DNA from: Dermatophagoides farinae
Taxonomy: Eukaryota; Arthropoda; Arachnida; Sarcoptiformes; Pyroglyphidae
DNA: 64,000 nt
Assembly (NCBI RefSeq): GCF_024713945.1
Contig: NC_134685.1
Coordinates: 3,528,342 to 3,592,341 of the forward strand
Reading direction: 5' to 3'
This document shows positions 37,301-64,000 of the stretch, piece after piece (positions within the stretch are counted from its first letter, which is position 1; every line of letters starts with the position of its first letter). The notes below the pieces were generated by a model. It searched no databases. It was not told the DNA's origin and saw nothing but the letters and a program-made list of their open reading frames with translations. Made by a program: the position numbers and the translations under genes.

Positions 37301-38703
37301 ACGGATTTTTGATTGCACATATCACTACGTCCAGTCAATTTCATCAATGATGGTGAATGATGTTGTGATGGTTCAAATAGTGACGGAAATAGGCTATGTG
37401 ACGATGAAGATGATGAATTCATTGTGGGAGATTGTGTGACCGTGGTAGTATGATTTGTGGGCAAAACTGGTACCGGAGAAGCAGCAAGAGCAGCTGCATA
37501 TTGTTGAGACCATGTTGAAAGAAGGTTATCCGAATATTTTTTCATAACATCGTGATGATGATTGAATGATGGTGGATCATAACCAATAACCGTTGGCGTT
37601 GCAGACATGATCCATGGCTGTGCAATGGTTGTTGTCGCTGTTGTTGGAAATTGAGTCATGTATAATGATGATGGATGAAACGAAAATTGTTGTTGTTGTT
37701 GCTGATGGTGGTGGTGGTCATTTAGCTTTGTTGATTGATTTTCATTTTCCAACAATAAACATTTGTCACCCAATAAAGCTGATTGTAAACGAGAATATTG
37801 CAACGATTTTTGATGTGGATCACCCGTTGTTCTTGTTGTTGTTGTTGTTGTTAATGATAATGATGATGATGATGATGATGAATGACGTCGTAATGGGTAA
37901 TATGGCTGTTGTTGATGATGATGATTAGGGTTACGGCTAGTTGATGATGGTGATGATGAATTTGTGATCGATCGACGTTGGTGATGAAGATGATTAGATG
38001 CATCATATGAAGAGGTAGCCATCATTATTGGTGATGATGATTGAAAGAAACCACCAACATGACTCAACGATGATAATTGACTTGATTCGCCTACGATTGC
38101 TTTATTTTCCTGAATCAATTTGTTTATATGTTCAGATATATCCTGATCGGTTGGCCTATGATGTATTTGTTGTTGTTGTTGTTGTTGTTGCTGCTGTATA
38201 GCGGATGATATACCTGCTGGTGCAACAAACACTGATTGTTTTCTAATCGGTACAGTTGTACGGTGTTCATTGCGTTTTATGTCAATCGAGCGTGGTTGAG
38301 GTGGCGGTGTTGTCGTCGGTGTCGTTGTGGGTAACATGATTGTTGGCACTTGATTTTGGTCAACAGTTGGGTTATTATTGTTATTTGGGTCAAAATTTAT
38401 CATTTGTATCAAATGATTGGACTGATTCCTCGCCGTCATCATCATTAGTGGTTGGTCATCTAATAATAACGTTCTTGTATTCTTGGATTGTTGGTGTTGT
38501 TGACCACCATTGCCACCGCCACCAATCAAATCAAACGAAAGAGGATGTTGTGTAGTATGGTGATGATTGAGATATTGGTGAACCGGATGGTGATGGTGAT
38601 GATGATGGTGACTATTTAGATGATAATGTTGTTGCGTTGTTATAGCTGATGTTATTGTCGTCATTGCTGATGTAACCGTCGTTGCGGTCAATGGGAAAGA
38701 CAT
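28339..38703 (-). CDS. shn: Schnurri / HIVEP-family zinc-finger transcription factor (4 exons, ~2557 aa)
   Basis: Exons 38703-36030, 35956-34064, 31501-31070 and 31013-28339 join in frame, all in phase 1, around introns of 73, 2562 and 56 bp. Zinc fingers in order: a C2HC finger near residues 682-705 ([26 protein letters not shown], Cys at the last position as in HIVEP proteins); a C2H2 pair near 1540-1595 with the ZAS-type sequences [19 protein letters not shown] and [19 protein letters not shown], followed by an acidic Asp block; three fingers near 2247-2345 (CPTC, CESC, CSYC), the last two with the [20 protein letters not shown] form; and a single finger near 2508. The total resembles Drosophila Shn (about 2500 residues), which works with Mad/Medea in Dpp target repression. 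The N-terminal ZAS finger pair of other family members is not seen. The rest is Ser/Gln/His/Asn-rich. Its 5' end lies inside the palindrome and is repeated at 63522-64000. Confidence 0.93.
31502..34063 (-). other. Large schnurri intron 2
   Basis: 2562 bp between exons 2 and 3 of schnurri, about 40 times longer than the other introns of this cluster. Non-coding, with TG repeats (33303-33324), AG repeats (33768-33781), a CATT run (33856-33886) and CA/GAT tracts. It could contain an alternative promoter or enhancer: short GC-richer patches lie around 31855-31885 and 32035-32100. No internal gene found. Confidence 0.75.
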
Positions 38704-41700
38704 TGTAAATTATTATTATAGTGAAAATTGTTCAACATAATTTTTTCATTCAAAAAAAAAAAAAAAAAACAAAACAACAAAACAAAACAAAACAAAACAA
38801 ACAAAACAGAAAAACAGAAAAAGCAAAACAAACTATGAATGTAACAAATTTTCTGGAGAAATGAAAAACATTCTGAATAATCAGTGAATGGTGATGATTA
38901 CACTTTGTTGATCACAGTTGAATATCTAAGCGAAGAAATTGAAGAAACAAAATTACGATTGACAAAAATCAATCGTCTGAAAAATACAAATACAAAACTT
39001 GCTTGTGTGTATACTACGTGTGTGTTTGATCAAGTTTGTATTGGCTAAATATTAGTTGGTTGGTAACCGGATCATCATCACCATCGCCATCGTCGTTGTC
39101 GTAGTTGATCATTTCAAAGTTATCGTCGACGCACACAAATGATAAATCTATCTTATTTGGAGAACTGAAGCAAGAGGGGGTGGTGTTGGTTTTTATAAAA
39201 ATTTTCTTTTCCTTTCCTTTCCTTTCCTTTGCTTTCACTAAATAACTCCGTTACACTTGTAAATTTTTTTGTTCTGCTCATAATAATAGTTGTCATTAGT
39301 GATGAGGATGAGTTACGTTTGTACTTGTTTTGTGGTATTGTAATTCATCGTTGGACTTTTGATTTTGGTGACGATAAAAATCAATGGTTGGCCAAACAAG
39401 CAGAAAATGTAGCAGTAAATGGTATTGGATTTTTATCACTTAAATGTTGATGATGTTGATTATCCCATTCACGTGATGATATCATCGACTTGTTGATTTG
39501 TGTGAGTGTAAGTGAGTGATTTGAGAATCATAAATTTGAGATCGATATGGCTTGAAATGGAAGCAAAAAAAAATGGTCAAGACATCGGTTAATCTGTTGA
39601 TTGATTGAAAAGAAAAAATTTCAAATTCAATAAGCTTCTTAAAAATAAACAAACAAACAATTGATTGAAACTGCTGTTGATTATTTCATTTTTTCTCTGC
39701 AGAAAGATGATTGGAAAAGACAAATTCCATTCAAAAACATGTGATTTTTTCAATTTTACAAATTTTTATTGAAAAAATTAGGTTTTTCCACCTTTTTAAT
39801 AATACTCAAACACAGAGAAAGAGAGAGAGAGAGAGGCATGATCGACATTGAACTTTTTACAACGGTCAATAATAATAGTAGTAATGATGATGATGATGGT
39901 GGTGATTGAAACAAACAACAAACAAAAACATTAACCATCAGCAACAATAACAACAATTATCGTATTTAATCAATCAATTCAATCACGAGGTATTTGGTCA
40001 GCCATTTAAATTGTTTGCAAACAGCAACAAGTGTTTGTTTGATTAAATTCTTTATTGAAAAGATTCGAAAACATTGCATTCATGTCACACACACGCACAC
40101 AATGAAAATGTATCAGCAAATGGTTGTTGTTTAGCATCTAGCTCGACGACGATGATGATGATGCGATGAATCCATTCTATTAGTAATCACCCATTTTGAT
40201 CTATACAACTCGATGTTTGTGTTGATCAATACGTACATAGCTGCTGCTGTTGTTGTTGTTGTTGTTTATGATCATCAACATGTTATGACGACGACGACGA
40301 TGATGATGATGATGATGAGGCAATTGAGTAACCTCAGTGTTGAATGAAAAATTTTTGATTGCAATAAAAAAAGCACCACCACCACCACTAATTCACTGGT
40401 AATCACGCACACACACACACTCATACACCAACCAAAATAGTGCCATTTTTTTCTTGATTGAGACAGAGATACATCGTTATAATTATCACATCGAATGATA
40501 CACATGTGCAATCACAAGTGTTTTTTGCGGTGCCTGAATCGAATCAAAAAAGAAAGAAAAGAAAAGAAAAGAACTGAAAGAATTACTCAATTATTGTTGG
40601 TAGAAAAGTTTAATTTTGGGAAAAACAATGGAATGAATTCGTTGTTGTTGTTATTGACAAATTTTCCAAGTTGATGCGTTTTTCATCATACACATACATG
40701 AACAACTAAACTAATGATGATGGAAAAATGATCGCATTTGATTTTGATAATCATTTGTGGTGGTGGTGGTGGTCGTCGTCGTCGTCATTGTGGTTGTTGT
40801 GTGGTAGTCACACACTGCGACGACAACGACGACGACGATGATGATGATTACATTATCATCACATAAATCCAAGGTCGGAAATTTCTTTATTTCTTTCTTT
40901 CTTGCTTTCTTTCTTCGTTCAAATCATAATTGCAATGGTCGAATGATAGTAGCGACGTCGACGGGGTATCGAGAACTAATTCGAACGTTGACGAATGACA
41001 TGGCCATTACTCATAATCACCATGTCAAAGCTCAAGTTAACCATGGTTGATGGAAAATAAATCTTTACATTTATATATTTGTGTGATGATCCTGGATTTG
41101 ATGGTGATGATTCACATGATGAAAAGAATTTTTTTTGTGCGGAAAAAATGTCCAATTCCTTATCATGATTTGTATCATCCTCATCATGATTAGTAATGTT
41201 TGTTTTGCAACAATGATTTATCGGATCCATATTCCATAGTCTATACAAACATTACACATGATCATCATCATCAAATCACATCAAGGCCAAGGATAAATCA
41301 TGTTTCAATATGCATAAATCACACATACAGAAACTGGATGAACAACACAACAATAAATTTAAACCAGAAAAAAATCCAAATACCGAATACAATCATTGAC
41401 GTAGGGCAGTATAGTACTGCGCACGTATAAACCTCGGTTCGTTCTTTACATCTGGATGATAACAAGTGTGGTGAGTGAAAGAGTGGTTAGTTAGAGTTGA
41501 TTGCAAGTGATCATGGATCATGTGACAATGGTGGTTAATAAAAAAGAAGAAGGAAAAACTTTTTACTCTCTCTTTGTTTGTCACTGTTTAAATACTAAAC
41601 TAAATTAAACTAAAAATCATTATCGATTGTTGTGAGGATTTGGATTGAACCTCCTACCTCCTGTTGGCGTTAAATATCATGGACAATTTTTTTAAAAAAA

Positions 41701-63200: not shown

Positions 63201-63521
63201 ATCAAACACACACGTAGTATACACACAAGCAAGTTTTGTATTTGTATTTTTCAGACGATTGATTTTTGTCAATCGTAATTTTGTTTCTTCCATTTCTTCG
63301 CTTAGATATTCAACTGTGATCAACAAAGTGTAATCATCACCATTCACTGATTATTCAGAATGTTTTTCATTTCTCCAGAAAATTTGTTACATTCATAGTT
63401 TGTTTTGCTTTTTCTGTTTTTCTGTTTTGTTTGTTTGTTTTGTTTTGTCTTGTTGTTTTTTTTTTTTTTTTTGAATGAAAAATTATGTTGAACAATTTTC
63501 ACTATAATAATAATTTACAAT
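57212..63521. other. Non-coding stretch of the right arm
   Basis: Inverted copy of 38.7-44.9 kb, with the same microsatellites and short frames in mirror order. No supported gene. It includes the poly(C) anomaly near 62.8 kb. The last ~500 bp form the 5' flank of the schnurri copy, with a T run near 63460-63472. Confidence 0.55.
62700..62872. repeat. Poly(C) tract with imperfect flanking duplication
   Basis: About 70 bases of almost pure C (62776-62847) interrupted by single T or G, in an otherwise about 70% AT region. The two sides repeat each other imperfectly: CAACGATGAATTA...AGTACAAACCGTACTCA before, and CAACGATGAATTA...AGTACAAACGTAACTCA after. The left arm (about 39.29-39.38 kb) has a single clean copy and no C run. 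The left-flank copy carries extra bases typical of low-quality reads. Confidence 0.85.
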
Positions 63522-64000
63522 GTCTTTCCCATTGACCGCAACGACGGTTACATCAGCAATGACGACAATAACATCAGCTATAACAACGCAACAACATTAT
63601 CATCTAAATAGTCACCATCATCATCACCATCACCATCCGGTTCACCAATATCTCAATCATCACCATACTACACAACATCCTCTTTCGTTTGATTTGATTG
63701 GTGGTGGTGGTAGTGGTGGTCAACAACACCAACAATCCAAGAATACAAGAACGTTATTATTAGATGACCAACCACTAATGATGATGACGGCGAGGAATCA
63801 GTCTAATCACTTGATACAAATGATGAATTTTGACCCAAATAACAATAATAACCCAACTGTTGACCAAAATCAAGTGCCAACAATCATGTTACCCACAACG
63901 ACACCGACGACAACACCGCCACCTCAACCACGCTCGATTGACATAAAACGCAATGAACACCGTACAACTGTACCGATTAGAAAACAATCATTGTTTGTTG
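63522..64000 (+). CDS. shn: Schnurri/HIVEP-like gene, 5' part of second copy (runs off window)
   Basis: ATG at 63522 opens a frame that continues to the window end, matching the first ~160 residues of the minus-strand schnurri ([20 protein letters not shown], the His run, LIGGGG, the [15 protein letters not shown] block). It differs from the left copy by at least two or three residues: Asn to Ser in the Gly-rich patch, Ile to Met near QMMNFD, and Ser to Leu near the window end. Several silent changes are also present, such as GGC to GGT Gly codons. Whether the zinc-finger exons are also present lies outside the window. Confidence 0.85.

Follow-up and report, generated by a model that had tools for sequence, protein, structure and literature searches.

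The palindrome at the end of Dermatophagoides farinae pseudochromosome 9 is probably a false terminal inverted duplication

At the end of the contig for D. farinae pseudochromosome 9 (C9; other contigs of the assembly are numbered likewise), one chromosome end is present twice, head to head, with a foreign, indel-rich piece between the two copies, and the second copy stops with the contig. The window that we analysed is the whole stretch C9:3528342-3592341, 64,000 nucleotides in length; C9 totals 3,592,341 bases, and therefore base 64000 of the window is the last base of the contig. The terminal ~13 kb of the contig is the mirror image of the ~12 kb that precedes it. We consider it likely, with a probability of roughly 0.88, that this palindrome is an assembly error, in which a second allelic copy of one chromosome end was joined head to head to the first, with 635 bp of noisy, chromosome-7-related sequence between them. 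The features concerned, in window coordinates, are these:

38223-50590, plus strand: left (inner) arm, 12,368 bp, unique DNA carrying a RING-H2 gene, repeats of subtelomeric type and of TTAGG, and a telomeric element represented by its 3' part
48296-48632, plus strand, mate at 53492-53804: diverged patch between the arms, lying within a 433-column alignment of 84% identity
49878-49935, plus strand: left-arm TTAGG repeats, degenerate and oriented as expected for a right-hand chromosome end, then a T42 tract at 49928-49969
49970-50590, minus strand: 3' part of the telomeric element, left copy, with poly(A) facing the chromosome interior
50591-51225, no strand assigned: joining piece, 635 bp, mirror mate absent, with an indel-heavy likeness to C7:2514300-2514808
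51226-52075, plus strand: right copy of the telomeric element, its inner side 220 bp longer than that of the left copy
51446-64000, minus strand: right (outer) arm, 12,555 bp, an inverted copy of the left arm, truncated at the contig end
52076-52129, plus strand: right-arm A26 tail, with six units of AACCT, the telomere C-strand repeat
62698-62860, minus strand: right-arm insert, poly-C (on the plus strand, 62774-62847) beside a second noisy copy of the adjoining ~60 bp

Comparison of the window with itself gave 29 gapless inverted pairs. It also gave three inverted alignments, 38223-39368 with 62860-64000 (97.6-97.8% identity), 39306-49496 with 52628-62775 (98.4% over 10,221 columns) and 49536-50590 with 51446-52527 (89.4%), and the arms are thus ~98% alike along 11.3 kb, dropping to 89% towards the centre. 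The initial annotation had described a giant near-perfect palindrome at 38225..64000 with arms of at least 11.6 kb; the palindrome is present, and both arms are in fact longer. It had also placed the axis of the inverted recurrence at 51.05 kb, and here the recurrence stands while the symmetry point lies nearer 51.02 kb, within a centre of 855 bp (50591-51445) that has no mirror mate. An inverted match of 12 kb is too long to be due to chance or to a short inverted repeat, and both were ruled out. In a genome search, a 2,265-bp piece of the arm was found at full length in two places, which are the two arms, with 17 shorter matches elsewhere. The 2 kb immediately inward of the left arm occupy a single full-length place, their 56 other matches all being short, and therefore the mirror copy has no continuation elsewhere in the assembly. 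A copy that stops with the contig in this way is what an assembly join would leave behind. Head-to-head arms of one chromosome end are also the geometry of a terminal inverted duplication arising by breakage-fusion-bridge.

Two gene labels from the initial annotation were followed up in the arms. A Pfam search found the RING-H2 domain PF13639 in the minus-strand frame at 44880-46355, as expected for RNF103. The label schnurri gained no such backing, as no Pfam family was found in the 901-amino-acid frame at 36007-38709; that frame is still open at the tip of the right arm, where three amino-acid changes were seen. An Rfam scan of the window at gathering thresholds gave zero matches.

The arms differ by single-base changes, by microsatellite and homopolymer indels, by one diverged patch and by one poly-C insert, which bears out the earlier description of near-identical arms, each with its own indels and substitutions, at ~98% identity. 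Isolated substitutions, meaning those with no other difference within 8 alignment columns, number 23 in 10,887 columns (0.21%); a looser count would be higher, and the 23 leave out five close transitions at 38413-38518, the microsatellite clusters, the patch at 48296-48632 and everything past 49560. Transitions account for 15 of the 23, against 6 of 65 mismatches in a noisy comparison made at the left end of C8 (Fisher p ~4e-7). The test uses the C8 counts of 124 and 19 gap events and 65 mismatches (6 transitions), and these counts depend on the scoring, since the same comparison can also be read as 103 and 5 gaps with 101 mismatches (13 transitions). The arm substitutions, being rich in transitions and unlike the C8 comparison in this respect, therefore resemble real alleles. 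Heterozygosity in D. farinae is given as 0.52% in the assembly report (PMC11074847), and transition-rich isolated differences at 0.21% thus make the right arm resemble a second allele, as would be expected of an assembly join between two copies of one end.

Two places between the arms depart from this pattern. In the diverged patch, extra bases are more frequent in the left copy (13 events versus 2, or 15 versus 5 under another scoring), and a relative of the patch at 52119-52236 is nearer the right-arm form, with 91% identity to 53574-53692 and 79% to the left arm; the patch is ambiguous and could be either read noise or a diverged allele. It is not an inversion, as its copies align in the same sense at 84%. 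The poly-C of the right arm is flanked on both sides by noisy copies of one ~60-bp sequence, and the insert has the look of an error made at the read level. Over most of its length the right arm is no noisier than the left arm. A candidate small inversion at 40264-40286 was also discarded, being a microsatellite with its frame shifted.

The left arm has the order seen at other right-hand ends: subtelomeric repeats, degenerate TTAGG repeats and, last, the telomeric element with its poly(A) side and 3' part. Among the matches listed, at least seven element copies outside C9 match the left copy exactly up to 50590, two at each of the right ends of C1, C6 and C10 and one at the left end of C7, and in all seven of these listed copies the poly(A) side faces the chromosome interior. 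Another listed copy on C1 (9149646) stops short of the 50590 point. Towards the right arm, four of these seven listed copies match from exactly 51226 and the other three from 51311. As the copies at other ends continue or differ at 50590 and 51226, both C9 copies of the element are cut, 220 bp apart, and the intervening 50591-51225 is therefore foreign to the element.

A genome search found no close copy of this joining piece; beyond itself it has three matches, all on C7. Those at C7:2514664-2514804 and C7:2334208-2334348 have equal scores (80% over 148 bp), and the third, at C7:2514452-2514474, is short (E 2.8) and collinear with the first. Aligned to C7:2514180-2514960, the piece has 583 of its 635 bases covered and scores 358, versus a best score of 82.5 among 200 shuffles in three-base blocks. 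The alignment contains 43 mismatches and 86 indel events, 58 of them extra in the piece and 28 missing, for an indel-to-mismatch ratio of 2.0. Control ratios were 2.2, 1.8 and 1.8 for the unpolished-looking left tips of C8 and C10 compared with cleaner copies, and 0.33 in each of two alignments between the telomeric element and its C7 copy. The arms compared with each other gave ratios from 0 to 1.33 on small counts, and the ratio test is therefore less sharp than the two element comparisons suggest. Over all columns the piece is 68% identical to C7, which is below the 83-92% of the noisy controls, and therefore part of the difference may be true divergence. An assembly join should show noise or foreign sequence at the joint, and 86 indel events to 43 mismatches fit that expectation, with some divergence possible. 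We infer that the joining piece is unpolished PacBio read sequence.

The palindrome on C9 has company in the same assembly. We examined the left ends of C1-C20 over their first 10 kb, which include N-masked stretches in C3, C4, C7 and C18 (at the very tip in C3 and C7); the right ends read were that of C9, in the window, and the last 3 kb of C2, picked for poly-C. Inverted telomeric DNA is found at two of the ten left ends of large contigs, C4 and C8. Positions 1-8500 of C8 run in the right-end sense and repeat C8:22501-29970 inverted at 89-91%, and pieces of this left end match other ends too, at similar identity. Raw CLR read noise is typically rich in insertions and in transversions; when the outer C8 copy is compared with C8:25361-28360, one-sided extra events number 103 versus 5, and 13 of the 101 mismatches are transitions.

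The left end of C4 reads (TTAGG)n, degraded repeats, an adapter-like stretch, CCGAA/CCTAA repeats, a masked stretch and (CCTAA)n. The adapter-like stretch resembles a SMRTbell adapter in which T has been read as G. Its score is 70 of 90 when T and G are pooled, the next other place reaching 56 (2,880 windows of 200 bases), the pooling having been chosen after T-to-G misreading was seen around the stretch; under plain scoring it reaches 25, below chance matches elsewhere (up to 41). A search for the PacBio adapter at the centre of the C9 palindrome found nothing above background with plain, T/G-pooled or A/C-pooled scoring. A palindrome due to a missed adapter should have an adapter remnant at a symmetric centre, and that of C9 has neither, 855 bp being unpaired. 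The last 3 kb of C2 are nearly all C and T, and probably represent miscalled C-strand repeats. Four sites in the genome have poly-C of at least 18 bases, in each case on the plus strand: the tip of C2, C6 near 1.776 Mb, the inverted tip of C8 and the right arm of C9. Ordinary tips are present as well. The left end of C6 starts in CCTAA repeats with no mirror seen, and the right end of C3 terminates in TTAGG with no mirror among the pattern matches listed.

The published assembly, GCA_024713945.1, comprises 62.43 Mb in ten pseudochromosomes and was made from a pooled sample of about 3,000 mites (PMC11074847). A group-2 allergen fragment from C1 is identical to Der f 2 of the Protein Data Bank at 113 of 114 residues, and its score is higher against Der f 2 (256 bits) than against Der p 2 (at most 235). 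A 20-kb library was run on the PacBio Sequel (subread mean 7,442 bp, N50 9,679 bp), Falcon, WTDBG2 and Flye assemblies were merged by Quickmerge, and the result was polished by NextPolish and Pilon with Illumina data (PMC11074847). The string 'palindrom' does not occur in the main text of that report, where the 'telomer' passage is a reference title (PMC11074847).

We suggest that the left arm would be the right-hand end of pseudochromosome 9, as far as it was assembled, and the right arm its counterpart from a second allele, linked in reverse orientation by the 635 bp of noisy chromosome-7-related sequence. The likeliest course is that the contig was extended beyond the end and back along the other allele by a PacBio CLR molecule, either chimeric or folded back, or by a merge of contigs carrying such a molecule; Illumina polishing would afterwards have cleaned most of both arms, leaving islands. 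The step that made the join, whether molecule or merge, is one that we infer. At 12.6 kb, the right arm exceeds both the mean (7.4 kb) and the N50 (9.7 kb) of the published subreads, and a single read would therefore need to be long. Against an assembly join stand the adapter-free centre, the cleanness of most of the right arm with its open frame at the tip, and the closeness of the two cuts, which lie within 220 bp of each other and are not accounted for by a random chimera. The initial annotation had offered two candidates, a real inverted duplication and haplotypes joined by the assembler, and the latter is favoured because the mirror copy ends with the contig, the differences look allelic, the joint is noisy and related to C7, and other ends carry inverted telomeric DNA; no positive evidence came to light for the former. 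The asymmetric centre speaks against a symmetric fold-back of one molecule.

A real terminal inverted duplication would mean that an end of chromosome 9, once uncapped, fused with its sister or its homologue, taking in 635 bp of chromosome-7-related filler, and that the product persists in culture. The fold-back geometry and the asymmetric joint agree with such an event, fusion joints are known to contain filler DNA of other origin, and the isolated substitutions, with 15 transitions in 23, resemble true changes rather than read noise. However, the mirror copy goes no further than the contig and has no continuation elsewhere in the assembly, and inverted tips occur on other chromosomes of the same assembly. 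Moreover, a joint that existed in the animals should presumably have been polished by uniquely mapping short reads, and yet the joining piece is indel-heavy. We therefore regard a real duplication as unlikely, and it is quite improbable that the cultured mites truly carry two allelic chromosome-9 ends in head-to-head fusion, with chromosome-7-related filler at the joint. If true, a telomere fusion would be maintained in a mite population, in a species with ten small chromosomes and with retroelements inside the TTAGG repeats at their ends. A hairpin end, in which one strand turns into its partner and reads run round the tip, would likewise give a mirror image about the chromosome end, but it should turn symmetrically with identical strands, and the 855 bp unpaired at an asymmetric centre, the allele-like substitutions between the arms and the C3 right (TTAGG) and C6 left (CCTAA) tips without a visible mirror make it scarcely credible.

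An assembly join of two allelic copies is of low biological interest, and its value lies in a correction to the reference assembly. Users of the D. farinae reference should be warned that pseudochromosome 9 probably ends in a false duplicate, 13 kb long and including a second copy of the RING-finger gene, and caution is also advisable at some other chromosome tips of the assembly that carry inverted telomeric DNA.

Three known systems bear comparison with C9. Breakage-fusion-bridge leaves head-to-head arms round a lost chromosome tip with an asymmetric joint; C9 has both the arms and the asymmetric joint in common with it, but is set apart by the contig end, by the noisy joining piece and by the lack of independent support. 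False duplication of a second haplotype is a known assembly fault, and its second copy, like that of C9, differs near the level of heterozygosity (0.21% isolated versus 0.52% published); there, however, the copy is left as a contig of its own, whereas in C9 the main contig carries it at its end in inverted orientation. Fold-back reads have been described, one with ~2 kb between its halves, together with a warning of tangles in assembly graphs, and systematic fold-backs were not found in the three PacBio samples of that report (PMC12870357). Chimeric reads are also reported, more commonly with ligation (PMC8495745). In such long-read artefacts, as in C9, a forward stretch runs on into its reverse complement (PMC12870357, PMC8495745), but the halves of C9, with their allele-like differences, are not the bases of one molecule throughout, and its middle piece resembles another chromosome.

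The left end of C4, one of the ten large contigs of the assembly, carries inverted telomeric DNA, and the long open frame found there is a telomeric non-LTR element of the mite:

C4 left end, 5690-9103: open frame of 1,137 aa, with an endonuclease domain (PF14529) and a reverse transcriptase domain (PF00078)

This frame starts directly inside the CCTAA array. A search of the literature on Dermatophagoides telomeres and subtelomeres turned up no paper. Part of the same end recurs on another large contig:

C10, left tip, 1361-6254: some 5 kb resembling the C4 left end

Over the first 3.1 kb of this segment, identity to the C4 left end is 82% over columns, and insertions between the two are strongly one-sided (217 events versus 16), so the C10 left tip, too, looks unpolished.

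The 635-bp piece that joins the two mirror arms in the window (50591-51225) has two relatives on C7, with equal scores, lying 180 kb apart in opposite orientations:

C7, 2334208-2334348: relative of the joining piece
C7, 2514664-2514804: relative of the joining piece, and the one of the two whose sequence was examined

The window also holds a separate short inverted repeat, in which 1671-1813 pairs with 2154-2294 at 97% over 143 columns.

Several of the small contigs C11-C20 look unlike mite DNA. Frames of at least 150 aa cover 0.69-1.00 of the first 10 kb in nine of the ten, the exception being C16 (0.20), compared with 0.10-0.55 for C1-C10; CCCTAAA-type repeats open C14 and C16. A diverged eukaryote may be present within the D. 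farinae assembly. On C14, a chaperonin-family protein has seven relatives besides itself, at 20-26% identity, and both of those with a named eukaryote source are from fungi.
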